Origin: Myxococcota bacterium
GTDB taxonomy: Bacteria > Myxococcota_A > UBA9160 > UBA4427
Assembly: GCA_029243605.1 (NCBI GenBank)
Contig: JAQWRT010000092.1
Coordinates: 62,001-126,000, forward strand
DNA: 64,000 nucleotides
Direction of reading: 5' to 3'
Both the position numbers and the translations under genes were made by a program. Each line of letters begins with the position of its first letter. The first letter of the stretch is position 1. Positions 5,021 through 60,962 of this stretch are shown one piece after another. Under the pieces are notes generated by a model. It had not been told where the DNA came from. It did not search any database and saw only the letters and a list, made by a program, of their open reading frames with translations.

Positions 5021-5986
5021 ATGAGCAAATTCCCGTTTCCGATTCCCCATGGCTGGTTCGGCCTGTGCTTCTCTCACGACCTCAAGGTGGGTGAAGTCAA
5101 GAAGGTTCGTTTTTGTGGTCGAAACCTCGTGGTTTTCCGTACCGAGTCGGGCCAGGCGGCGGCGCTCGATAATTACTGCCCGCACCTGGGTGCGCCGCTT
5201 GACCAGGGCTGCGTCGTCGGTGAATCCTTACGGTGTCCTTTCCATCATTGGCGATGGGCCACCGACGGCCATTGTGTCGAGATTCCGTATGCGAAGAGAA
5301 TTCCTGGGCGAGCGATCGCAGAGACGCTCCCGGTCAAAGAAATCAATGGGATGGTCATGGCTTGGCATCATCCCGATAGCCGTGAGCCCTATTTCGACAT
5401 CCAGACCGTCACTGGACTCGAGTCCGACCAAGATTTGTGGGGCGAGGTTCACTATTACGAACATGACCTCCCGACCTGCGCCCAGGAGATTTCGGAAAAC
5501 GACGTCGATGCTGCCCATTTCCAGTTTCTGCACGGGATGCCGGCAATGAATGAAGCTCAGGCCACGGTCGAAGGGCCCATGAAGCGGACGGTCCAGACCT
5601 TCCTCACAAGCGATGAATTCGCTCAAGGAGAGGTTGAGGCCGCTACGCCGTATCTGACGGTACGCGAGTCGTCCGGGCCCGGGATCACATCTGTTTGGGC
5701 GAGGAACGTCGCCGGAGTCGCTCCCGGCGTCACAGGCGAATTTCTTCTCTATAACGTCACCACACCGATAGAGGACGATCGAACTATCCTGCGCTGGTCA
5801 CTCCTGCTGACGAAGAGCTTGGAGCAGGACGATATGGGGAAGACGCTCTTGGTGAGTTTTGCCGAAGGCGTGAAGGACGACATTCCGATTTGGAGAGACA
5901 AGATCTACCGCGAAAACCCGGTTCTGTGCGATGGGGACGGTCCGATTGCGATCCATCGAAAGTGGTTCTCGCAATTCTACGCCTAG
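5021..5986 (+). CDS. Rieske non-heme iron oxygenase, large-subunit type (KshA-like)
   Basis: This 321-residue protein has the Rieske [2Fe-2S] motif at Cys53-Pro-His55 and Cys72-Pro-Phe-His75. A C-terminal catalytic domain contains ENDVDAAHFQFLH. This gives the bridging Asp and the two His ligands of the mononuclear iron, with the pattern ENxxDxxHFxxxH. The layout matches oxygenase components such as KshA (3-ketosteroid 9-alpha-hydroxylase) and related cholesterol or aromatic hydroxylases. The start is ATG after the GAGGACCCC stretch. No ferredoxin or reductase partner is adjacent, so electrons must come from elsewhere. The KshA-like label is by architecture only; the substrate is not shown. 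Confidence 0.85.
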   Translation: MSKFPFPIPHGWFGLCFSHDLKVGEVKKVRFCGRNLVVFRTESGQAAALDNYCPHLGAPLDQGCVVGESLRCPFHHWRWATDGHCVEIPYAKRIPGRAIAETLPVKEINGMVMAWHHPDSREPYFDIQTVTGLESDQDLWGEVHYYEHDLPTCAQEISENDVDAAHFQFLHGMPAMNEAQATVEGPMKRTVQTFLTSDEFAQGEVEAATPYLTVRESSGPGITSVWARNVAGVAPGVTGEFLLYNVTTPIEDDRTILRWSLLLTKSLEQDDMGKTLLVSFAEGVKDDIPIWRDKIYRENPVLCDGDGPIAIHRKWFSQFYA

Positions 5987-7601: not shown

Positions 7602-8894
7602 GTGAAAAGCGAACCCAAGCGAGGGGCATTCCCTGCGGCCGCCCTTCAGGCCGAAAAACTGGCGTCCGACTTTCGTGAGGTGCGGGCACGAACGCAGATT
7701 CTCGCTGCCCCTCTGTCTCCCGAAGATTGTTCGGCCCAGTCGATGCCCGATGCCAGCCCGACCAAATGGCATATGGCACACACGACCTGGTTTTTCGAGA
7801 CCTTCGTACTCGAGGCTTCAACGTCGGGCTTTATGGCCTTCGATGAGTCTTTCAAGACTCTCTTCAACTCTTATTACAACTCGGTGGGCGACCAGTACCC
7901 GAGACCTCGCCGTGGCCTGCTGACCCGGCCGAGTCTCGCGAGGGTGCGGGAGTATCGCGAGCAAGTCGACGAGAAAATTATACGGGGGCTCGAGGCAGAC
8001 GCATTTAGGCCAGAAACACTGAGCATTATCGAGCTTGGCCTTCACCACGAAGAGCAGCATCAAGAGTTGATTCTTAGCGATATCCTCCACCTTCTTTCGA
8101 TCAACCCACAGTTTCCGGCCTACAGGCAAGACCTCCCTGAGCCAGCTCCGCAAGAGCTGGCACCCCTCACCTGGCATGCGGGTCTTGAAGGCATTCAAGG
8201 GCTCGGCCACCCTGGGGTCGGGTTCAGCTTCGATAATGAGGGCCCGCGTCACGAGGTTCTCGTGGCGCCCCACGCCCTGGCCTCGCGGTTGGTCAGCAAT
8301 CTAGAGTTCCGGGCGTTTATGGAAGACGATGGTTATTCAAGGCCAGAGTTGTGGCTTTCCGAAGGCTGGACCCTCTGCCAGGATGAGAGTTGGCAGGCGC
8401 CGCTCTATTGGCAGAAGGCCGACGCCGATTGGAATTGCTTCGGCCTCGGAGGATTGGGCCCAATGGTGCCCAGCGAGCCCGTCTCCCATATCAGCCTGTT
8501 CGAGGCCGATGCATATGCCCGCTGGGCCGACGCACGGCTGCCCCTGGAAATCGAGTGGGAGTTGTCGGCCAAGGAGCCGGGGCCCGAGGACAATCTCGCG
8601 GAGTCCGGTCGGCTTCGACCGAATGGTTTGTCTTCGAGAGGCGAATTGGGACCGCATCAGCTCTTTGGTGACGTTTGGGAGTGGACCCAGTCGGCCTACC
8701 AGGCATACCCGGGCTACCGCCCTGGGCCAGGAGCCCTGGGCGAGTACAACGGAAAATTTATGTCGAACCAAAATGTTCTGCGGGGCGGATCATGCGTGAC
8801 GCCCCGGCGTCATATTCGGTCGACCTATCGAAACTTTTTCCCTGCACATGCCCGTTGGCAATGGAGCGGGCTACGCCTGGCAAAGGATGCCTGA
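7602..8894 (+). CDS. egtB: Ergothioneine biosynthesis protein EgtB (sulfoxide synthase)
   Basis: This 430-residue protein has an N-terminal DinB-like domain with the iron-binding pattern His (in KWHMAHTTWFFE) and HEEQHQE (H-x3-H-x-E). A C-terminal FGE-sulfatase domain ends in NVLRGGSCVTPRRHIRSTYR. The enzyme couples hercynine with a thiol (gamma-glutamylcysteine or cysteine, depending on type) and O2 to form the sulfoxide intermediate. The start is GTG with GGAG upstream; no better ATG exists. The end of the gene overlaps the start region of egtD, so the two are translationally coupled. egtA and egtC are not adjacent, which would fit a cysteine-using EgtB. Confidence 0.92.
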   Translation: MKSEPKRGAFPAAALQAEKLASDFREVRARTQILAAPLSPEDCSAQSMPDASPTKWHMAHTTWFFETFVLEASTSGFMAFDESFKTLFNSYYNSVGDQYPRPRRGLLTRPSLARVREYREQVDEKIIRGLEADAFRPETLSIIELGLHHEEQHQELILSDILHLLSINPQFPAYRQDLPEPAPQELAPLTWHAGLEGIQGLGHPGVGFSFDNEGPRHEVLVAPHALASRLVSNLEFRAFMEDDGYSRPELWLSEGWTLCQDESWQAPLYWQKADADWNCFGLGGLGPMVPSEPVSHISLFEADAYARWADARLPLEIEWELSAKEPGPEDNLAESGRLRPNGLSSRGELGPHQLFGDVWEWTQSAYQAYPGYRPGPGALGEYNGKFMSNQNVLRGGSCVTPRRHIRSTYRNFFPAHARWQWSGLRLAKDA

Positions 8895-9892
8895 GGTTCT
8901 ATTTGACTGAAAAGAAAAGCTTCCTTGAAGAGGTCATTGATGGCCTCTCCCAAGAGCAAAAGACACTTCCCTGCAAATACCTCTATGACGCGCGCGGTTC
9001 GCTGCTCTTCGAGGAAATTTGTGAACTCGATGAGTACTACCCGACTCGAACCGAGCTCGCGATCATGCATCGATATTCCGAGGAGGTGTCTTCTCAGGTG
9101 GGCGAAGAGGCCCTACTGATCGAGTACGGGAGTGGCAGTAGTCGGAAAACGCGACTTCTCTTGGATAGTCTTCGGGAGCCCTCCTGTTATGTGCCGATCG
9201 ACATTTCGCCCGAGATACTCGCCGATTCTGCCGCTGCCATAGCGAAGATCTATCCCGACTTAGAAGTACACCCTCTTTGCGCCGACTATCTTTCGCCTGT
9301 TGCGATTCCCATCCCGGAAAAGCAATTTCGCCGCAGGGTCGTCTACTTCCCGGGGTCGACAATCGGAAATTTTGAACCCGTCGAGGCCCTGGAATTCCTG
9401 GCACGGATGGCAAGGCAAGCAGGCTCCGGAGGGGGAGTGCTGATTGGCGTCGATCTGCGAAAAGATTCCCAAGTACTGGAAAGAGCCTACGACGATGCCC
9501 GGGGTGTCACGGCCCAGTTTGATTTGAATCTATTGGTACGCATGAATCGCGAATTGGGCGCTGATTTCCCTCTCGACGATTTCCGACACACGGCCCGCTG
9601 GGAGCCAGATTTGGGTCGCGTCGAGATGAGACTGGTCTGCAAAGCCGCATGCCGAGTCGATATTGCCGGGCATGCCTTCGACTTCAGCGCCGGGGAATAT
9701 ATCCATACCGAGAGCGCGTATAAATATGATGTCGGCGAGTTCGCATCCCTTGCCACGAAGGCAGGGCTCTCGCCCCAAACTGTCTGGACGGACGATTCCA
9801 AAAAATTCAGCATTCACTATCTGACAGTGCCCGATAGTCTAGGTTTTCAGAGTGGAAGCGATCGCGAGCCGATCGACCCTGACTTGGGATAG
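8861..9892 (+). CDS. egtD: L-histidine N-alpha-methyltransferase EgtD
   Basis: EgtD makes hercynine by triple methylation of histidine with SAM, the first step to ergothioneine. Family blocks present are LYDARGSLLFEEI, LDEYYPTRTE, the SAM site IEYGSGSSRKTRLLLD, VVYFPGSTIGNFEP, and the C-terminal AYKYDVGEF. From ATG 8861 the protein has 343 residues and overlaps egtB by 34 bases. A TTG at 8903 with GAGG just upstream is a credible alternative start, giving 329 residues, closer to the usual 320-330. The longer open frame toward 8675 lies inside egtB and is not conserved coding. The neighbour is egtB, in one operon. Confidence 0.9.
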   Translation: MERATPGKGCLRFYLTEKKSFLEEVIDGLSQEQKTLPCKYLYDARGSLLFEEICELDEYYPTRTELAIMHRYSEEVSSQVGEEALLIEYGSGSSRKTRLLLDSLREPSCYVPIDISPEILADSAAAIAKIYPDLEVHPLCADYLSPVAIPIPEKQFRRRVVYFPGSTIGNFEPVEALEFLARMARQAGSGGGVLIGVDLRKDSQVLERAYDDARGVTAQFDLNLLVRMNRELGADFPLDDFRHTARWEPDLGRVEMRLVCKAACRVDIAGHAFDFSAGEYIHTESAYKYDVGEFASLATKAGLSPQTVWTDDSKKFSIHYLTVPDSLGFQSGSDREPIDPDLG

Positions 9893-51547: not shown

Positions 51548-52612
51548 CTATTGCCGGGCCGGGTGAGCGCTGGGAGAGCAACCGAACCAGCGTCGAAAGG
51601 CTCTTCCGAAATTGGCGGGGTCTGTGTAACCAAGCCGATGGCCAATCTCGGCGATGGTCAGGTTGTGATCTGCGAGAAGTTGCTCGGCTCGTCTTCTCGA
51701 GTGCGCCTCGACAATAGAGCGAAAAGACGTTCCGGACTCTGCCAGGCGCCGCACGAGAGTTCGCCTGGAGAGGTAAATGCGTCGAGCGATTTCTTCCGCG
51801 CTGGGTGGAGCGCCAGGGCTGGCCTCCAGGATTTGTTCGACACGCGCGACGATGAAGTCGTGCCCGTCGAGACCGCGTTCGGAAACCTCGAGCTCTGACT
51901 TGGCCCTTTGGTATTGGGATTCGTTGGCGAATGGGCAGTCGAGTTCGAGCCACGCCTCCGGGAATGCGAGGGTGGCAATGACGGGATTTTCTGCCGCGTA
52001 GGAAACGGGCGCCGATAGGGCTTCGCGGTAGCGGTTGGCATACTCCGGTTCGGAAAAGGGCAGGGTGAAGCTCGCTTCGCTCATGGATTCGCCCAGGGCA
52101 GACTCGAGCAGGGCTTGAACGCTGATCAAAACCGTCTCGACCAGTGAGCGCTTCAGTTCTATTTCGACTTCGACCAGAATTTCGAGGTGGACGCGATGCT
52201 GGCCCGCCTCCGTCGATCGCCGAATGGAGAAATACGGGGCGCGCAGGTGGGCGAAACGTTCGAGGATCGCCAGAGCCCGATCCAGGTTCTTGGCCGCTGC
52301 AGTGGCGGCCGCCAGGGCACCGTGGGCTGAGCCGTGCAGGGCCGGCCCAATGTCGAGGGCCCAACTCGGGGGGGCGAAGGCGTTGATATTCTGGAGCAGG
52401 CGCAGCTGTTGCCAGACGAAAATCGTCGCATTGGGGTCGATGGCATGGGCCCGCTCGGGACTGATTCCCGTTCCCTGGAGGAGCAGGTGGGCTCGCTCGG
52501 CTTCCGCCCCGAAGCGCCGCAGGAGGAGGCGGAGATAGGCCGCGGGCATGGGCAGCGCGCCGGTGCCGTGGCCTTCGTGGAAGAGGCTGTCTGGCTCAAA
52601 ATGACCAGTCAC
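51548..52612 (-). CDS. AraC family transcriptional regulator
   Basis: The 354-residue protein begins at GTG 52612, with ATG 52549 (MPAAYLRLLLRRFGAEAER) as an alternative. The N-terminal 200 residues match the Arabinose_bd-type effector domain of OruR/ArgR-like regulators (ILERFAHLRAPYFSIRRSTE). The C-terminal HTH_18 has two helix-turn-helix units: IARRIYLSRRTLVRRLAESG with TSFRSIVEAHS, then TIAEIGHRLGYTDPANFGRA with FRRWFG. Regulators of this group usually control one adjacent catabolic operon. The P450 gene is divergent 190 bases away and is the likely target. Confidence 0.85.
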   Translation of the reverse strand: MTGHFEPDSLFHEGHGTGALPMPAAYLRLLLRRFGAEAERAHLLLQGTGISPERAHAIDPNATIFVWQQLRLLQNINAFAPPSWALDIGPALHGSAHGALAAATAAAKNLDRALAILERFAHLRAPYFSIRRSTEAGQHRVHLEILVEVEIELKRSLVETVLISVQALLESALGESMSEASFTLPFSEPEYANRYREALSAPVSYAAENPVIATLAFPEAWLELDCPFANESQYQRAKSELEVSERGLDGHDFIVARVEQILEASPGAPPSAEEIARRIYLSRRTLVRRLAESGTSFRSIVEAHSRRRAEQLLADHNLTIAEIGHRLGYTDPANFGRAFRRWFGCSPSAHPARQ

Positions 52613-52802: not shown

Positions 52803-54083
52803 ATGTCCTCAGTCGCCGAAGAAAGTCCCTTAGCCGCTCTCAATCAGGCCGGATCGGATCCCTATTCGATTCCCCTCGAGAAGATCAACGTCTCGGATTC
52901 GGAACTCTTTGCGACGGATACTTTGTGGGGCTATTTCGAACGCCTTCGCAAGGAGGCCCCGATCCACTACTGCGCCGAAAGCGAGTTCGGTCCCTATTGG
53001 TCGGTGACCTGTTTCGAAGACATCGTCGAAGTGGAGAAGAATCCGGAAATATTCTCCTCGGCTCGAAGCATCGTGATCGGTGACCCCACTCCGGATTTCC
53101 CCTTGGAGGCCGGCTTCATCACGATGGATGGGAAGCGGCATACTGATCACCGCAACGTCGTGAAGCCGTCTATGGCGCCACGTAACCTCAAGCGACTCGA
53201 GCCCCTTATTCGTGAGCGCGTGGTTGAGATCCTCGAAGGCCTGCCCGTGGGAGAGACTTTCAATTGGGTGGATCGGGTCTCCATCGAACTCACCACGGGG
53301 ATGCTCGCCACACTTTTCGATTTCCCCTATGAGGATCGCCGCAAATTGACCTTCTGGTCCGATATGGCGACGGCGAGCCCCGAGCAGGTGGGCGCTGTTG
53401 GGATTACAGAAGAGGAGCGCCAGCAAGCGCTGATGGAATGTCTGGAGGTTTTTACCGGCCTCTGGAAGGATAGAGAAGGGAAGCCCGATAGCGATAAACT
53501 CGATCTCATAACCCTGCTCTCCAACGGAGAATCCACCCGTGATCTCGACCCCATGGAGTACCTGGGGACCCTGGTTCTGCTCATCGTGGGAGGCAACGAC
53601 ACGACGCGCAACTCGATTTCAGGAGGCGTGCTCGCGCTGAACGAGAACCCGGCTGAGTACCAAAAATTGAGAGATGATTTGAGCTTGATTCCCAATATGG
53701 TCAGCGAGATCATCCGCTGGCAGACGCCCCTCGCCCACATGCGGCGAACTGCCACTCAGGACACCGAACTCGGGGGCAAGTCGATCAAAAAGGGCGACAA
53801 GGTGATCATGTGGTACGTCTCGGCGAATCGGGACGAAACCGCGATTGACCGGGCCAACGAGTTCCTCATCGATCGTCCCAATGTTCGCCGCCACCTTTCG
53901 TTTGGTTGGGGGGCGCATTTCTGCATCGGCAGCCGGATTGCCGAAATGCAGCTCCGCATCCTGTGGGAAGAAGTGATGCAGCGCTTTAGCCGGGTCGAGG
54001 TAGTTGGAGATCCGGTGCGCGTTCGTTCCAATTTCGTCAAAGGCTTCGAGGAACTCGGGGTTCGGCTGCATCCCCTGCCCTGA
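52803..54083 (+). CDS. Cytochrome P450
   Basis: This 426-residue bacterial class-I P450 has the heme motif FGWGAHFCIGSRIAEMQ with the thiolate Cys374. The I-helix reads VLLIVGGNDTTRNSISGGVL with the acid-Thr pair; ExxR is in VSEIIRWQTPLAHMRR. The HTDHRNVVKPSMAPRNL segment (helix C) is typical of CYP families acting on terpenes, steroids or fatty acids. No ferredoxin or reductase gene is adjacent. It is divergent from the AraC regulator gene and likely induced by it. Its neighbours downstream, amidohydrolase and CoA transferase/thiolase genes, fit hydroxylation followed by acyl-chain shortening. Confidence 0.92.
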   Translation: MSSVAEESPLAALNQAGSDPYSIPLEKINVSDSELFATDTLWGYFERLRKEAPIHYCAESEFGPYWSVTCFEDIVEVEKNPEIFSSARSIVIGDPTPDFPLEAGFITMDGKRHTDHRNVVKPSMAPRNLKRLEPLIRERVVEILEGLPVGETFNWVDRVSIELTTGMLATLFDFPYEDRRKLTFWSDMATASPEQVGAVGITEEERQQALMECLEVFTGLWKDREGKPDSDKLDLITLLSNGESTRDLDPMEYLGTLVLLIVGGNDTTRNSISGGVLALNENPAEYQKLRDDLSLIPNMVSEIIRWQTPLAHMRRTATQDTELGGKSIKKGDKVIMWYVSANRDETAIDRANEFLIDRPNVRRHLSFGWGAHFCIGSRIAEMQLRILWEEVMQRFSRVEVVGDPVRVRSNFVKGFEELGVRLHPLP

Positions 54084-54575: not shown

Positions 54576-55643
54576 ATGCCCAGGGCCAACCGTCTTTTTT
54601 CTGCCGATTCACATTGCGTCATTAACAGCGACCAAGTGAAAAAGAACCTCGCGTCTAAATATCATGCCGCTTGGGACGAAGGAATGGCGAAATACGACGC
54701 CATCCGCGATGAAGAAATGGCTGGCGAGAGCCTCGAGCTCGAAGATTTCGTTGATCTCGAGGCGGCGCGCCACCCGGGCTATTTCGATTCGACCGCACGC
54801 CTGGAGGCTATGGAGGCCGATGGGGTCGAGTGTGAGGTCATGTACTCGGAGTTCGACTTCACGAGCAAGGTCTACCAGGTGGGGGACCAGTGGCGCGAGT
54901 GCGCCACCGCCTACAACGACACTCTTCTCGAGTTCGCTTCCGTGGATCCGAAGCGCATCTTGATCACCTATCAACTTCCGCTGATTGATATCGACTATGC
55001 GGTCTCCGAAATTGAACGGCTCGCCAAGCTCGGCGCGCGTTCGATCCAAATCCCGAATTTTCCCAGCGAGGTGGGAATGCCGGACTACCACGATCCGCGT
55101 TACACAAGGCTCTGGTCGGCTTTCGAGGAGACGGGTGTTGTCGTGGCTAATCACCTGACGCTCAAGAATTCATTGTGGGAAACTTTTCGGCGTGATCCGA
55201 CACCCCAAAAGGGAATCTTTACCGCGATGCCAGGTTTTGCCATCGGGGAGACCCTTTGCTGGTATATCTTGACGGGCATCTTGGAGCGGCATCCGAAGCT
55301 CAAGATCGTTTTTGTTGAGCCCGGACTTTTCTGGCTCTCTGGTTTCATTCGTTACCTCGATAGCCGCATGCATCACCACTATGATTTTCCAGGTGTCAAA
55401 GAGTTGCCCTCCACGTATTTCAAGAGGCAAATGGCCGTGACTTTTGTTCATGAGCCCGAGGGCGTCGAATTGCGGCATGAACTCGGCGTCGAAAATGTTC
55501 TCTGGTCGACGGATTTCCCTCACCCGGTTTGCAATTGGCCAGATGCGGGCGCGAAGGTCTTGAAGCAATTCGAGGGCGTGCCCGAAGACGAAGTACGCGC
55601 GATCACCTGGGGCAATGGGGCTCGAATGTACGGTATAGAGTGA
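54576..55643 (+). CDS. Amidohydrolase family protein (metal-dependent hydrolase, amidohydrolase 2)
   Basis: The 355-residue protein starts at ATG 54576 with GAGGAG upstream, rather than at 54513. It has the amidohydrolase-2 (ACMSD-like) layout: SADSHCVI at the N-terminus where family members have DxH, then a region with CATAYNDTLLEFASVDPKRI, FSEDTG-like VVVANHLTL with a metal His, and VEPGLFWLSGFIRYLD. The end reads NVLWSTDFPHPVCNWPDAGA, with the catalytic Asp in STDFPHP. Members hydrolyse or decarboxylate cyclic acids and are frequent in terpenoid and steroid ring pathways. The CoA transferase gene follows 37 bases downstream. Confidence 0.85.
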   Translation: MPRANRLFSADSHCVINSDQVKKNLASKYHAAWDEGMAKYDAIRDEEMAGESLELEDFVDLEAARHPGYFDSTARLEAMEADGVECEVMYSEFDFTSKVYQVGDQWRECATAYNDTLLEFASVDPKRILITYQLPLIDIDYAVSEIERLAKLGARSIQIPNFPSEVGMPDYHDPRYTRLWSAFEETGVVVANHLTLKNSLWETFRRDPTPQKGIFTAMPGFAIGETLCWYILTGILERHPKLKIVFVEPGLFWLSGFIRYLDSRMHHHYDFPGVKELPSTYFKRQMAVTFVHEPEGVELRHELGVENVLWSTDFPHPVCNWPDAGAKVLKQFEGVPEDEVRAITWGNGARMYGIE

Positions 55644-55680: not shown

Positions 55681-58170
55681 GTGGCTGGTGTTCTAGACGG
55701 TATCCGTGTAGTCGATCTTTCCGAAGGCATCGCCGGTCCGATGGCGACCATGATGTTTGCCGATCACGGAGCCGAGGTGATCAAGGTGGAGAGGCCCGGA
55801 GGAGATCCGTTCCGGAGCCAGATCGCCTACCACGGTTGGAATCGGGGCAAGCGCAGCGTGATTCTCGACCTCGCTCGTCCCGAGGATCGTGAAGTTTTAT
55901 CGACTCTGATTCGCCACGCCGATGTTCTGCTGGAAAGCTTTGCTCCGGGTAAGGCCGGGGAGTTCGGGCTGGATCACGACTCGCTGGCCGAGATGAATCC
56001 CGAACTCATTCACTGCTCGATTACGGGATATGGGCGCGATAATGCCCATTCCGACCGGCCAGGCTTGGATGCGCTGGTCGCCGCCCGGACCGGTCTTCAG
56101 TGGGAGCAGCGTGGGCGGGTTGGAGGCTCCGCGGCCTTCCTTTCGGGCCAGCCGGCATTTTCCGCCGACTACGAATGCCCCGCCGAGGCGCTCCAGGGAC
56201 CGGACCGCAACGGCCCCCTCTTTTCCTCGTCGCGTTTCCCGAGCCTGGGCGCCGCCCATGCCACAACCCTGGCGATCAGCGCAGCGCTTCGCGCCCGGGA
56301 GATCACCGGCCGGGGGCAGTGGGTCGAGACTTCACTCCTCCAGGGGGCACTTTCCGCGGGCGGCATGGCTTTCGCCACCGGGGAGAATCTCGATGCCTGG
56401 GGCTTCTCGACCTGGGTCTCGGACAGTCGATCGCCTAAGGGCCTCTTTGAGTGCAGCGACGGGCAATGGGTGCACTGCTGGCCCCCAAGCCCCCGCTTCG
56501 TGCTCGCCGCGGGCGAAGGCGATGAACTTAATGCGCACCCCGACTTGGCTGTGCGCGAAGATCCCGATCGCATCGGTCTTGGGCCCGAAGAGCTCTTCGT
56601 GCTTCACCATTATTGGCTGTTGATGGAGAAAACCTTTGCGAAGTTCAGTGCGGATGCTTGGGCCGAAGCCGGCGCTCAGGCGGGGGTTTGTATCCAGCGA
56701 GTTCGCGCTCCCGAGGAGGCTTGGTCGGACCCCCTCCTCCTGGCCGACGGCTGCGTGGCGGAAATCGACGACCCTGAGCTCGGCCCGATTCGGACGGTAG
56801 GCATCACCTACAGCCTGGGAAGAAGTCCCGGCAAGGTGGGAAAGGCGGCACCCCGGGCGGGCGAGCACAACGACGAAATCAGAGCCGAGGCCGCCGCCTT
56901 CGGGTCGCCCCGGTCGCCTCGGGAAGCCGGAAGACCCCTGCCCGGCGGCCCGCTTGAGGGCATTCGGGTGCTCGATTTTGGCTTGGCCGTGGCAGGCCCC
57001 TACGGCGCGCAACTTCTTAGCGATTTGGGAGCCGATGTCATTAAGGTGAACGCGCTCCACGATTGGTATTGGCACTCGAACCAGATCGCCATGTCGTGCA
57101 ATCGGGGTAAGCGCAGCCTGGCGGTGGATCTTAAGCACGAAGCCGCCAAGGAATCCATCGAACGATTGATCGCCTCGGCCGACGTGATCATCCACAACAT
57201 GCGCTACCCCGCCGCCGTTCGTCTGGGGATCGACTACGAGACGCTCAAGGAAAAATATCCTCGGTTGGTTTATTGCCATACCCGGGGTTTCGAACACGGT
57301 CCACGCGAACAGCTCCCCGGCAACGACCAGACCGGCGCCTGCTTGGCCGGGGTTGAGTGGGAGGACGGCGGCTGCGGCGGCGGGGGCCGGCCCTTCTGGT
57401 CGCTCACCAGCATGGGCGATACGGGTAATGGCTACCTCGCGGCATCGGCGATCTGCCAGGCCCTCTACGAGCGTGAAAAAACGGGCCAGGGGCAGTGGGT
57501 GGAGACGGCGATCATCAATGCACAGCTGCTCAACGCCTCCCACTCCCTGGGCCGCCCGGACGGAAGCGGTTTCGAAAGGCCCCTGCTCGATGCCGATCAC
57601 CTCGGGCTTTCCGCAGGCATCCGTCTCTATGCCACTGCGGATGGGTGGCTCTGCCTTTCCCTCCTGGGCCAGGAAGATTGGCGAGGCCTGGCAAGTGCTC
57701 TCGGGGATTCCGAACTCGAGGCTGGATTCAACGCGGGGGCCGAGGTCGATTCAGAGCTCGCCGAGCGGATCGAGAAGATTCTGGCCACGCGCAGCTCCGA
57801 GGAGGCCTTTGCGCTTCTGGATGGGGCGGGAGTTCCGTGCGAGATCGCTTCGGAGCGGGCCAGTCTTGCCCTGTGGTCCGATCCCGAGGCCTTCGAGCGT
57901 CGCTGGATCGTCCAATATCCCCACCCCATGGTGGGTGAGATCGGCCAGGTAGGCCTGGCCTTTTCGTTTTCCGAAACCCCGGCTCGCATTCAGGGTCCGC
58001 CTACCCTGGTGGGGGAGCACACCCGGGAGATCCTGGGCGAACTCGAATATTCGGAGTCGGAAATCGAGACCCTTCTGGAGGCTGGCGCCGTGGGGGATCG
58101 AAACCTGCACCCCGCCCTCAGTGGCGATTCGGATGGCGCGGTGAAGTCGCCCTGGGCTCCCGACACGTGA
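55681..58170 (+). CDS. Tandem CaiB/BaiF CoA-transferase fusion
   Basis: The 829-residue protein starts at GTG 55681. It carries two family III CoA-transferase units. Unit 1 (residues 1-400) reads LDGIRVVDLSEGIAGPMATM, MFADHGAEVIKVERPGGDPF, NRGKRSVILDLARPEDREVL and NPELIHCSITGYGRDN. Unit 2 (about 420-815) reads LEGIRVLDFGLAVAGPYGAQ, SDLGADVIKVNALHDWYW and CHTRGFEHGPREQLPG. Normal enzymes are single-unit homodimers of about 400 residues, so this may act as a pseudo-dimer. Family III moves CoA between carboxylates, through an Asp whose position I cannot fix here. The last base pair step GTGA joins it to the DUF35 gene. Confidence 0.9.
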   Translation: MAGVLDGIRVVDLSEGIAGPMATMMFADHGAEVIKVERPGGDPFRSQIAYHGWNRGKRSVILDLARPEDREVLSTLIRHADVLLESFAPGKAGEFGLDHDSLAEMNPELIHCSITGYGRDNAHSDRPGLDALVAARTGLQWEQRGRVGGSAAFLSGQPAFSADYECPAEALQGPDRNGPLFSSSRFPSLGAAHATTLAISAALRAREITGRGQWVETSLLQGALSAGGMAFATGENLDAWGFSTWVSDSRSPKGLFECSDGQWVHCWPPSPRFVLAAGEGDELNAHPDLAVREDPDRIGLGPEELFVLHHYWLLMEKTFAKFSADAWAEAGAQAGVCIQRVRAPEEAWSDPLLLADGCVAEIDDPELGPIRTVGITYSLGRSPGKVGKAAPRAGEHNDEIRAEAAAFGSPRSPREAGRPLPGGPLEGIRVLDFGLAVAGPYGAQLLSDLGADVIKVNALHDWYWHSNQIAMSCNRGKRSLAVDLKHEAAKESIERLIASADVIIHNMRYPAAVRLGIDYETLKEKYPRLVYCHTRGFEHGPREQLPGNDQTGACLAGVEWEDGGCGGGGRPFWSLTSMGDTGNGYLAASAICQALYEREKTGQGQWVETAIINAQLLNASHSLGRPDGSGFERPLLDADHLGLSAGIRLYATADGWLCLSLLGQEDWRGLASALGDSELEAGFNAGAEVDSELAERIEKILATRSSEEAFALLDGAGVPCEIASERASLALWSDPEAFERRWIVQYPHPMVGEIGQVGLAFSFSETPARIQGPPTLVGEHTREILGELEYSESEIETLLEAGAVGDRNLHPALSGDSDGAVKSPWAPDT

Positions 58171-58589
58171 GCGGGGGAATGCGACCGGGGCTCCAGCCCT
58201 CTCGGGATAGCGCCTTTTTCTGGCAGGGCCTGCGCGATGACAAGCTTCTCTGCCAGTCCTGCGATGAGTGCGGCGGCCTTCGGCATCCGCCGCGGCCCAT
58301 GTGCCCGGATTGCGGTTCCCTGGAGTGGAGCGCCCAGCCACTTTCGGGCCGGGGCCGGGTTCATGCCTGGATCAAACCCGTTCACCCCCCACTCCCCATG
58401 TTCGAGGAGGGATTTCTCGTGGCCCTGGTGGAACTCGACGAGGGCATTCGCCTGCTCTCGAACCTTTGTGAAATCTCTGGGGAAGATGTCCGTAATGAGA
58501 TGCCTGTCGAGGTGTTCTTTATCGAGATCGATGCCGAGGGCACGAAGGTTCACCAGTTTCGCCCAGTAGGAGAGTCGGATCGTGGCTGA
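58167..58589 (+). CDS. DUF35 OB-fold/zinc-ribbon protein, thiolase partner (ChsH2-like)
   Basis: The 140-residue protein begins at GTG 58167, sharing GTGA with the CoA-transferase stop. It has a rubredoxin-type zinc ribbon (CQSCDECGGLRHPPRPMCPD with CGSLEW) and an OB fold (RGRVHAWIKPVHPPLPMFEE). Such proteins pair with thiolase-like enzymes and bind acyl-CoA; in the sterol pathway the DUF35 part of ChsH2 binds the aldolase Ltp2. The 3' end overlaps the start of the thiolase-like gene by 8 bases, so the two are translationally coupled and likely form a complex. Confidence 0.88.
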   Translation: MSGGMRPGLQPSRDSAFFWQGLRDDKLLCQSCDECGGLRHPPRPMCPDCGSLEWSAQPLSGRGRVHAWIKPVHPPLPMFEEGFLVALVELDEGIRLLSNLCEISGEDVRNEMPVEVFFIEIDAEGTKVHQFRPVGESDRG

Positions 58590-59745
58590 CGAATCCTCCT
58601 CGGTGATCGTCGGGATCGGGCAGACCGAGTTTTCGAAAAACTCGGGGAGAAGTGAGCTGCAACTCGCCTGCGAGGCCATTCGGGCTGCTCTGGACGATTG
58701 CGGCCTGGCTCCCGCCGATGTCGACGGGATGACGACTTTCACCCTGGACACCAGCGACGACGTCGACCTCGTACGCTCCTTGGGCATCGAAAACCTGCGT
58801 TTTTCGTCCCGAGTGCCGCACGGGGGAGGGGGATCCACGGGCACCCTGGCTCACGCCATGGCGGCGGTGGATTCGGGGCTCGCCGAGGTGGTGGTCTGTT
58901 GGCGGGCGATGAACGAACGCTCCGAGGCACGTTTCGGGACCGCCCAACTTTCGGATGCCGGTCATGCTCGGGGCTCGGGGACGGGCTTTATCGAGTGGAG
59001 CGTTCCCTTCGGTGCCGTGACGCCGGCTGCTTGGACGGCCATCGGGGCTCAGCGTTATATGCACGCCTATGGCGCCACCAATGAAGATTTCGGCCGGGTG
59101 GCGGTCACTCTGCGAAAAGCGGCGTCAACGAACCCCGCCGCCTTCTTCTATCAACGCCCCCTGAGCCTCGAAGAACACCAGGCCTCGCGTTGGATCGCTG
59201 AGCCGGTCTTCCGGCTCTTCGATTGCTGCCAGGAGAGCGATGGAGGAGTTGCTTTCGTGGTGACCTCCAAGGAGCGCGCCCGGGATTGCCGCATGCCCGG
59301 TGCTCGGATCCTTCACGCCACCCAAGCCGTTCCCTTTGATACCGAGGTCGTTACGAATTTCTATCACGCGGATCTTACCCGCTTCGACTCAGGGGTTGCC
59401 TGCGCCGCCAACCTCTATGGTCGGACAGGGCTCGGGCCCGAAGACATTCAGGTTGCCATGCTCTACGACCATTTCAGCGTGGCGGTCTTCTGGCACCTGG
59501 AAGCCTTCGGTTTCTGCGGACCCGGTGAGGCGCCGGATTTCATCCGCGAAGGTCATTGCGATCTGGAGGGGCGCCTTCCCCTGAGCCCCAATGGCGGTCT
59601 GATCGGCGAGGCCTATATCCACGGGATGAACAACATCACCGAGGCGGTACGCCAGATTAGGGGGACAGCGGCCAACCCCATCGATTCCGTGGACCACGTC
59701 CTTGTTTCGTCGGGGATGAGCGGGGCGATCCTGGGTCGCCTCTGA
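58582..59745 (+). CDS. Thiolase-like lipid-transfer protein (Ltp2-type aldolase)
   Basis: The 387-residue protein starts at GTG 58582 inside the end of the DUF35 gene. The fold is thiolase-like (ADESSSVIVGIGQTEFSKNS, and NGGLIGEAYIHGMNNITEAV). Where true thiolases have the nucleophilic Cys, this protein reads VPHGGGGSTGTLAHAMAAVD: no Cys. That is the mark of Ltp2-like proteins. They carry out retro-aldol cleavage of a beta-hydroxyacyl-CoA side chain and rely on Tyr residues, one in GEAYIHG. It probably removes a terminal unit from a CoA-activated side chain. The operon order CoA transferase-DUF35-aldolase supports this. Substrate unknown. Confidence 0.85.
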   Translation: MADESSSVIVGIGQTEFSKNSGRSELQLACEAIRAALDDCGLAPADVDGMTTFTLDTSDDVDLVRSLGIENLRFSSRVPHGGGGSTGTLAHAMAAVDSGLAEVVVCWRAMNERSEARFGTAQLSDAGHARGSGTGFIEWSVPFGAVTPAAWTAIGAQRYMHAYGATNEDFGRVAVTLRKAASTNPAAFFYQRPLSLEEHQASRWIAEPVFRLFDCCQESDGGVAFVVTSKERARDCRMPGARILHATQAVPFDTEVVTNFYHADLTRFDSGVACAANLYGRTGLGPEDIQVAMLYDHFSVAVFWHLEAFGFCGPGEAPDFIREGHCDLEGRLPLSPNGGLIGEAYIHGMNNITEAVRQIRGTAANPIDSVDHVLVSSGMSGAILGRL

Positions 59746-59789: not shown

Positions 59790-60962
59790 TCAGTCCAGGC
59801 GCTCGATGATGGTACCGGTGCCCAACCCGCCGCCGCAGCACATGGCGATCAGGCCGTAGCGCCCCCCGGTTCGTTCGAGGGTATGCAGGGCCGTGGTGAT
59901 CAGGCGATCGCCCGTGGCGCCGGTGGGGTGGCCGAGGGCGATGGCGCCGCCGTTGGGGTTGACCCGGGCGGGGTCGGGCCCGCAGGCCTTCTGCCAGGAC
60001 AGGACGATACTCGCGAAGGCCTCGTTGACCTCGAAGGTGTCGATCTCGTCGATGGAGAGTCCCGTGCGGGCGAGGAGCTTCTGAGTCGCGGGGATCGGTC
60101 CCTCGAGAATCTTGAGCGGGTCGCAGCCGACGATGGTCGAGTAGACGATGCGCGCCCGGGGCTTCAGACCCAATCGCTTGACCGCGGATTCCGAGGCGAA
60201 CATCACCGCCGATGCGCCGTCGGTGACCTGGGAAGAACTTCCGGCGGTATGAATGCCCCCCTCGACTACGGGCTTGAGTTGGGACAGTCCTTCCAGGGAG
60301 GTGTCGCGGAGCCCTCCGTCGCGAGTGACCGTGCGGGTTTCACCGGTGGGGTTGCCCTCACCGTCGAGCACGGGCGCTTCCACGGGAATAATTTCATTTT
60401 CGAAATGCCCAGCATCCCAGGCCTCTCGACCGAGTTGCTGACTTCGGAGTCCGAAGGCATCCGTATCATCCCGGGTGATTTCCCAGTCCTGAGCGATCAT
60501 TTCGGCACCCTGGAATTGGGAATTGAAACCGCCGACGACCTTCATGTAATTCTCCGAGATGGGGCGTCCCTCGTGGCGGGAATTGGCGCCGAGGGGGATG
60601 CGCGTCATGCACTCGACGCCACAGGTCATGACGACATCCTCGAGCCCGGAAGAAACGAGACCCGTGGCCAGGGTGCTCGCCTGCTGGCTCGATCCGCACT
60701 GGCTGTCCACCGTGGTGGCCGGCACCTCGATGGGAAGCCCGGCACCGAGCCAGGCCGTTCGCGCGACATTGAAACTCTGCTCGCCCACCTGGGAGACGCA
60801 GCCGCCGACAACCTGGTCCACCGAGGAGGGCTCCAAGCCGACACGTTCGATGAGCCCGCGTTGAACCTTGCCCAAGAGATCGACGGGATGCATGCCCGCG
60901 AGTTCACCCTTGCGTCGACCGAGAGGGCTCCTTGCCGCCCCAACAATGAATGCTTCGCTCAT
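59790..60962 (-). CDS. Acetyl-CoA acetyltransferase (thiolase)
   Basis: The 390-residue protein starts at ATG 60962 with GCGAGGAGAATA upstream; the longer frame to 61250 is rejected. It is a classic thiolase. The nucleophile Cys is in TVDSQCGSSQQASTLATGLV near residue 90. The C-terminal motifs NPNGGAIALGHPTGATGDRL with the catalytic His and MCCGGGLGTGTIIERLD with the second Cys are both present. It cleaves 3-ketoacyl-CoA to acetyl- or propionyl-CoA plus a shortened acyl-CoA. It is convergent with the Ltp2-like gene, the two ends being 44 bases apart. The two proteins may act in the same pathway. Confidence 0.92.
   Translation of the reverse strand: MSEAFIVGAARSPLGRRKGELAGMHPVDLLGKVQRGLIERVGLEPSSVDQVVGGCVSQVGEQSFNVARTAWLGAGLPIEVPATTVDSQCGSSQQASTLATGLVSSGLEDVVMTCGVECMTRIPLGANSRHEGRPISENYMKVVGGFNSQFQGAEMIAQDWEITRDDTDAFGLRSQQLGREAWDAGHFENEIIPVEAPVLDGEGNPTGETRTVTRDGGLRDTSLEGLSQLKPVVEGGIHTAGSSSQVTDGASAVMFASESAVKRLGLKPRARIVYSTIVGCDPLKILEGPIPATQKLLARTGLSIDEIDTFEVNEAFASIVLSWQKACGPDPARVNPNGGAIALGHPTGATGDRLITTALHTLERTGGRYGLIAMCCGGGLGTGTIIERLD

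Follow-up and report, generated by a model that had tools for sequence, protein, structure and literature searches.

A conserved four-gene set linking a tandem CoA-transferase and an 'amidohydrolase' to a DUF35–Ltp2-type aldolase pair in uncultured Myxococcota

The 64,000-nucleotide stretch analysed here (the window), from contig JAQWRT010000092.1 of a Myxococcota bacterium, carries a conserved unit of four genes, which encode an 'amidohydrolase' of family PF04909 (AmdH2), a tandem family III CoA-transferase (CaiB2), a small DUF35 protein and an Ltp2-type thiolase-fold retro-aldolase. We propose that the four genes constitute one peripheral catabolic module. Judged from sequence, this module probably combines CoA transfer with retro-aldol cleavage; the full scheme, in which AmdH2 acts as the hydroxylase, is put forward tentatively and at somewhat less than an even chance. 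The combination of known enzyme kinds is real, conserved and apparently undescribed, since no description of a gene set with CaiB, DUF35, amidohydrolase and thiolase was found in the open-access literature.

An earlier note on this DNA had described three coupled genes, and all three open reading frames are confirmed on the plus strand: CaiB2 at 55681–58170 (829 aa), the DUF35 protein at 58167–58589 (140 aa) and the Ltp2-type aldolase at 58582–59745 (387 aa). The first two overlap by 4 bases (GTGA) and the last two by 8, as the note had it, and identical overlaps are present in a second copy of the locus from another genome (L042, 1482–1485 and 1072–1079), whose proteins are ~64–77% identical to those of the window. 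Pfam finds CoA_transf_3 (PF02515) twice in the first protein, zf-ChsH2 and OB_ChsH2_C in the second and Thiolase_C_1 in the third. The note had also named the amidohydrolase upstream, but missed both its core membership and its place in the PtmU3/DitZ/AibH branch of PF04909, for which Pfam, profile searches, metal ligands and linkage all speak; its reading frame opens at TTG 54513, the likelier start being ATG 54576, which places the gene at 54576–55643 (+). In the automatic gene calls several starts lay too far upstream and some DUF35 genes were absent, and gene presence was therefore judged by tblastn.

Among 379 Myxococcota genomes, AmdH2 orthologues (threshold 1e-100) occur in 17, which belong to four families and nine genera; all have at least 72% identity, and nothing below this value passed. 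CaiB2 is present in 20 genomes, all 17 AmdH2-positive ones among them, and a module-type Ltp2 is likewise found in 17, including 16 of those with AmdH2. This co-occurrence far exceeds chance: its hypergeometric probability is 5e-26 by genome and 4e-13 by genus, relatedness not being corrected. In 12 genomes the four genes lie together, in one of three arrangements: AmdH2>CaiB2>DUF35>Ltp2, as in the window and most genomes; DUF35-Ltp2 divergent from AmdH2-CaiB2 (L083, L084); or CaiB2 downstream of Ltp2 (L102, from a metagenome-assembled genome labelled Pseudomonadales, whose contig holds the CaiB N-half only). The earlier note had named the lack of a conserved neighbourhood as one outcome that would refute it, and the order does recur across genomes, with four genes instead of three. 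Elsewhere the set is divided by contig ends (G002, G022), has its DUF35-Ltp2 pair on another contig, although the Ltp2 tree still places that pair with module sequences (G344, G357), or has all four genes on separate contigs (G160). AmdH2 without a close Ltp2 is seen only in G016, where the contig stops inside CaiB2, and a close Ltp2 without AmdH2 only in G010, where the Ltp2 gene sits on a 3.4-kb contig. A scan of ~85,000 species for AmdH2 gave 17 loci; to judge by the record titles, almost every one comes from uncultured Myxococcota or 'Deltaproteobacteria', and the nearest (L089, 97%) is from 'Myxococcota bacterium isolate ANT-51'. Two further observations concern incomplete copies. The AmdH2 orthologue of G344 (L101, 3042–4157) has an in-frame TAG beside an intact CaiB2, and is either a pseudogene or a sequencing error; three genomes of genus g11 (G217, G226, G332) have a 63–64% identical CaiB2 and no AmdH2 orthologue at the threshold, which suggests partial modules or another partner.

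The 387-aa protein passes the curated Ltp2 model NF005892 (533 bits; cut-off 469) and matches Ltp2 of Thermomonospora curvata (TcLtp2; PDB 6OK1) along its whole length (1.9e-128). In TcLtp2 the base is Tyr294 of a YDHF motif and the acid is Tyr344 (PMC12329534); the equivalent Tyr295 and Tyr345 of the window protein are invariant in 15 aligned homologues, among which the His of YDHF varies, fitting its modest role. A Cys-dependent thiolase was considered and rejected on the YDHF motif and the two Tyr. The label 'Cys-less thiolase', used by the earlier note, is right at the catalytic position, where YDHF replaces the Cys as in TcLtp2, and wrong for the protein overall, which has nine Cys. By these sequence criteria it is an Ltp2-type retro-aldolase, and the proposed pairing of DUF35 with an Ltp2-like enzyme holds: the 140-aa protein matches the ChsH2-DUF35 chain of 6OK1 (8e-30), has a Cys-rich zinc ribbon (Cys at 29, 32, 35, 46 and 49) followed by an OB fold, and shows no fused MaoC/hydratase domain in Pfam. 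It is thus, by sequence, the usual kind of partner for such an aldolase, in a stand-alone form, and would be expected to form a complex with it; the two genes overlap by 8 bases.

What this aldolase cleaves is a separate matter. In a tree of 49 homologues, TcLtp2 and the Ltp2s adjoining fused ChsH2-type proteins form one branch (97/97), and the module Ltp2s lie outside it, as do the detached Ltp2s from AmdH2-positive genomes; the module sequences themselves do not form one supported clade, L084, L102 and L109 branching apart and L079 being a long branch. The window genome also holds a separate canonical ChsH1-ChsH2-Ltp2 set on contig C61 (L048, 15592–18200). We therefore rejected the label of a steroid igr-type operon for the locus; since the module Ltp2 falls outside the clade of TcLtp2 and the hydratase-linked enzymes, the terpenoid or steroid-like substrate that had been predicted is plausible and no more than that. 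The C61 set has a TetR regulator, with an AMP-ligase and two more thiolase-like proteins alongside. This enzyme pair is greatly expanded in the window genome, whose 4.4 Mb encode 13 DUF35 (OB_ChsH2_C) domains and 10 Ltp2/thiolase-like proteins in all.

CaiB2 is a tandem protein, as had been claimed, with one CoA_transf_3 stretch in each half (~1–415 and ~416–829; 27% identical to each other). Family III CoA-transferases require a catalytic Asp (PMC9196870), and in an alignment of 13 orthologues the C-half keeps it in every sequence, as Asp580 of the motif MGDTGNG, whereas the corresponding residue of the N-half is Ser188, also in all 13. Most likely, then, to judge from this alignment, each chain has a single active site. 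Among solved structures, CaiB2 is most closely related to succinate-hydroxymethylglutarate CoA-transferase.

In a search with the AmdH2 orthologue profile, the top solved matches were PtmU3 (6OMP, 2.7e-34, 122 bits) and DitZ (8UYR, 2.1e-29, 106 bits), with ACMSD-type decarboxylases next at ~48 bits. PtmU3 is a diiron beta-hydroxylase of platensimycin/platencin biosynthesis that accepts CoA-linked substrates, diterpenoids (PMC7782822); its oxygenase relatives include AibH2 and SfbO (PMC7782822, PMC10811679). The six published ligands of AibH2 align with D20, H22, H202, E257, D322 and H325 of AmdH2 (numbering of the A3 row; subtract 9 for the ATG 54576 start), giving the PtmU3/AibH pattern, D-x-H, H, E, D-x-x-H, and all six are invariant in 16 orthologues. 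Comparison of a model of AmdH2 with known folds put DitZ, an uncharacterised mycobacterial structure, SfbO and PtmU3 at the top, with decarboxylases close behind. A hydroxylase step is thus supported by the best relatives and by the invariant ligands, and AmdH2 appears, on sequence, a better candidate for it than the P450 encoded upstream. A second cluster of the window genome, on contig C11 (L049, 4782–11191), encodes DUF35 and an Ltp2-like protein together with hydratases of the MaoC and FAS1_DH types, a tandem CaiB of 852 aa and a member of PF04909, in which the auxiliary acid discussed below is likewise missing (DYPHPI).

Families, gene set, catalytic residues and conservation can be read from these sequences; the reactions of the following scheme, which is the most economical one, are inferred, and so are their sequence, the acid acted on and the donor of CoA. 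Through the lone Asp580 of its C-half, CaiB2 would take CoA from a thioester and pass it to an acid, the degenerate N-half completing a pseudo-dimer; AmdH2, as a PtmU3-like metalloenzyme, would use O2 to hydroxylate the beta-carbon of the acyl-CoA; and the DUF35-Ltp2 complex would cleave the resulting beta-hydroxyacyl-CoA by a retro-aldol reaction in which Tyr295 serves as the base and Tyr345 as the acid; the products would be a ketone or aldehyde and a short acyl-CoA. A single oxygenase would thus do the work that the ChsE/ChsH/Ltp2 route divides between an acyl-CoA dehydrogenase and a hydratase. A scheme free of these two enzymes is favoured because neither an acyl-CoA dehydrogenase nor a MaoC hydratase recurs beside the module in at least three genera. 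In its strongest form this would be a new O2-dependent shortcut of beta-oxidation, an altered-site PF04909 enzyme beta-hydroxylating the acyl-CoA made by a tandem transferase and a stand-alone DUF35-Ltp2 pair removing the side chain in a single step, with no dehydrogenase, hydratase or ligase; we consider this possible but rather doubtful.

Several observations weigh against hydroxylation by AmdH2. AmdH2 has Val or Cys where the dinuclear members have an auxiliary acid (PtmU3 Glu313, AibH2 Asp342, DitZ Asp343), and the mononuclear AibH1 carries the same six residues without that acid (PMC7782822). The AibH2 D342A mutant still loads its metals, with lower activity (PMC10401708). The fold scores do not clearly separate oxygenases from ACMSD-type decarboxylases, and the model has a predicted local distance difference test score (pLDDT) of 70, falling below 50 at 322–330, where two of the ligands lie; with model confidence this modest, the fold matches count as supporting evidence only. 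The usual partner of amidohydrolase-related oxygenases is a Rieske ferredoxin or reductase (PMC10811679), and none recurs beside the module in three or more genera, a weak criterion as partners can lie elsewhere. Finally, the ChsH1/ChsH2 hydratase encoded on C61 could act in trans. Because the auxiliary acid is replaced and AibH1 shares the six residues, we did not file AmdH2 as an amidohydrolase-related dinuclear oxygenase (ARO), and its assignment as an oxygenase is offered as a lead and not as a classification.

The cytochrome P450 upstream (52803–54083, +), which the earlier note had drawn into the pathway, is of CYP153 type (its best solved relatives include CYP153A7, 3RWL), and downstream a convergent gene (59790–60962, −) encodes a FadA5-type steroid 3-ketoacyl-CoA thiolase (NF005889, 543 bits; cut-off 515); outside the window genome and that of its nearest relative, neither is seen beside the module, and both were rejected as members of the system. 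An AraC-type regulator recognised by Pfam (51548–52612, −) is divergent from the P450, and its place is taken in other copies by a MarR-type regulator, which recurs in six module loci from five genera. An alpha/beta-hydrolase recurs at four loci from three genera, and a luciferase-like oxidoreductase completes the list of recurring neighbours. We had considered a small recurring neighbour as a possible Rieske partner, and rejected it: it is the MarR protein, the ~340-aa neighbour being the alpha/beta-hydrolase. The acyl-CoA dehydrogenase encoded in the window is not conserved beside the module. Farther away, the window encodes a KshA_C Rieske oxygenase of 3-ketosteroid 9alpha-hydroxylase type (5021–5986, +; 113 bits), with a second copy on contig C73, and adjacent EgtB and EgtD, an ergothioneine biosynthesis pair (7602–9892, +), both above curated cut-offs.

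How, then, does the aldolase obtain its hydroxyacyl-CoA? CaiB2 might activate an acid that is already beta-hydroxylated, with DUF35-Ltp2 cleaving the product and AmdH2, as a mononuclear hydrolase, decarboxylase or C-C hydrolase, preparing the acid or processing what is released; a similar logic underlies the pairing of succinyl-CoA:citramalate CoA-transferase with citramalyl-CoA lyase. We regard this account as the main rival, with a substantial minority chance. The missing auxiliary acid of AmdH2 fits it, as do the non-redox reactions of the other characterised PF04909 enzymes (PMC10811679), the lack of a redox partner in the module, the alpha/beta-hydrolase beside four copies and the kinship of CaiB2 with succinate-hydroxymethylglutarate CoA-transferase, its best solved relative; it has to contend with a ligand set of PtmU3/AibH type and with profile scores that place PtmU3 and DitZ more than 45 bits above every decarboxylase.

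The hydroxyl group could instead arise by the ordinary Ltp2 route, with a dehydrogenase and a ChsH1/ChsH2-type hydratase encoded elsewhere making a beta-hydroxyacyl-CoA from a steroid or terpenoid side chain, the locus supplying extra copies of CoA-transferase and aldolase and AmdH2 being unrelated. Although the C61 set, the FadA5-like thiolase and acyl-CoA dehydrogenase within the window and the two KshA_C oxygenases would suit such a route, we think it unlikely: the module Ltp2s lie outside the TcLtp2/ChsH2-linked clade, their DUF35 partner lacks a hydratase domain, the co-occurrence with AmdH2 is too tight for that protein to have an unrelated role, and neither FadA5 nor the dehydrogenase is conserved with the module. 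A biosynthetic or tailoring use of platensimycin type, with DUF35 and the thiolase-fold protein employed to shorten or assemble a specialised metabolite and not for growth, is suggested by the origin of PtmU3 in diterpenoid antibiotic biosynthesis (PMC7782822); no biosynthetic core gene travels with the module, only the MarR, hydrolase and luciferase-like genes, and the regulator and esterase-like neighbours look catabolic, which makes this use quite improbable.

For uncultured Myxococcota, these findings define a set of genes in which a catabolic step can be tested, and they suggest that the DUF35/Ltp2 aldolase pair also works apart from the steroid system that is linked to a hydratase. Should AmdH2 prove to hydroxylate, it would extend the chemistry known from PF04909, a very large family in which oxygenases have come to light only recently. 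The locus is also a warning that other 'amidohydrolase' annotations beside Ltp2-like genes may conceal oxygenases.

Compared with the systems already described, the module shares with the Ltp2-ChsH2(DUF35) steroid side-chain aldolase of T. curvata (6OK1) the thiolase fold, the DUF35 partner, the YDHF motif and the second Tyr, and differs from it in that its DUF35 protein stands alone, no ChsH1/ChsH2 hydratase is present at the locus, its Ltp2 branches elsewhere, and CaiB2 and AmdH2 are linked to it. PtmU3 is AmdH2's best solved relative by sequence and has the same six first-shell ligand positions; it is only about 24% identical, has Glu313 where AmdH2 has Val or Cys, and comes from another gene context. 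The dinuclear oxygenases AibH1H2 and SfbO have the same fold and six-ligand pattern, whereas AmdH2 lacks the auxiliary acid and no Rieske ferredoxin recurs beside the module. CaiB2 resembles the benzylsuccinate CoA-transferase BbsEF (9FN0), both chains of which it matches, and other two-part family III enzymes in having two family III units, which in CaiB2 are fused in one chain. A parallel in overall logic is ibuprofen degradation (ipfABDEF), where CoA ligation is followed by a dioxygenase and then by the IpfDE retro-aldolase, with release of propionyl-CoA (PMC9195938). The order of CoA activation, O2-dependent hydroxylation and retro-aldol cleavage is the one that we propose here; the ibuprofen pathway achieves it with a CoA ligase and an aromatic-ring dioxygenase acting on an aromatic substrate, whereas in the module the tandem CaiB2 and the PF04909 protein AmdH2 would take these roles.

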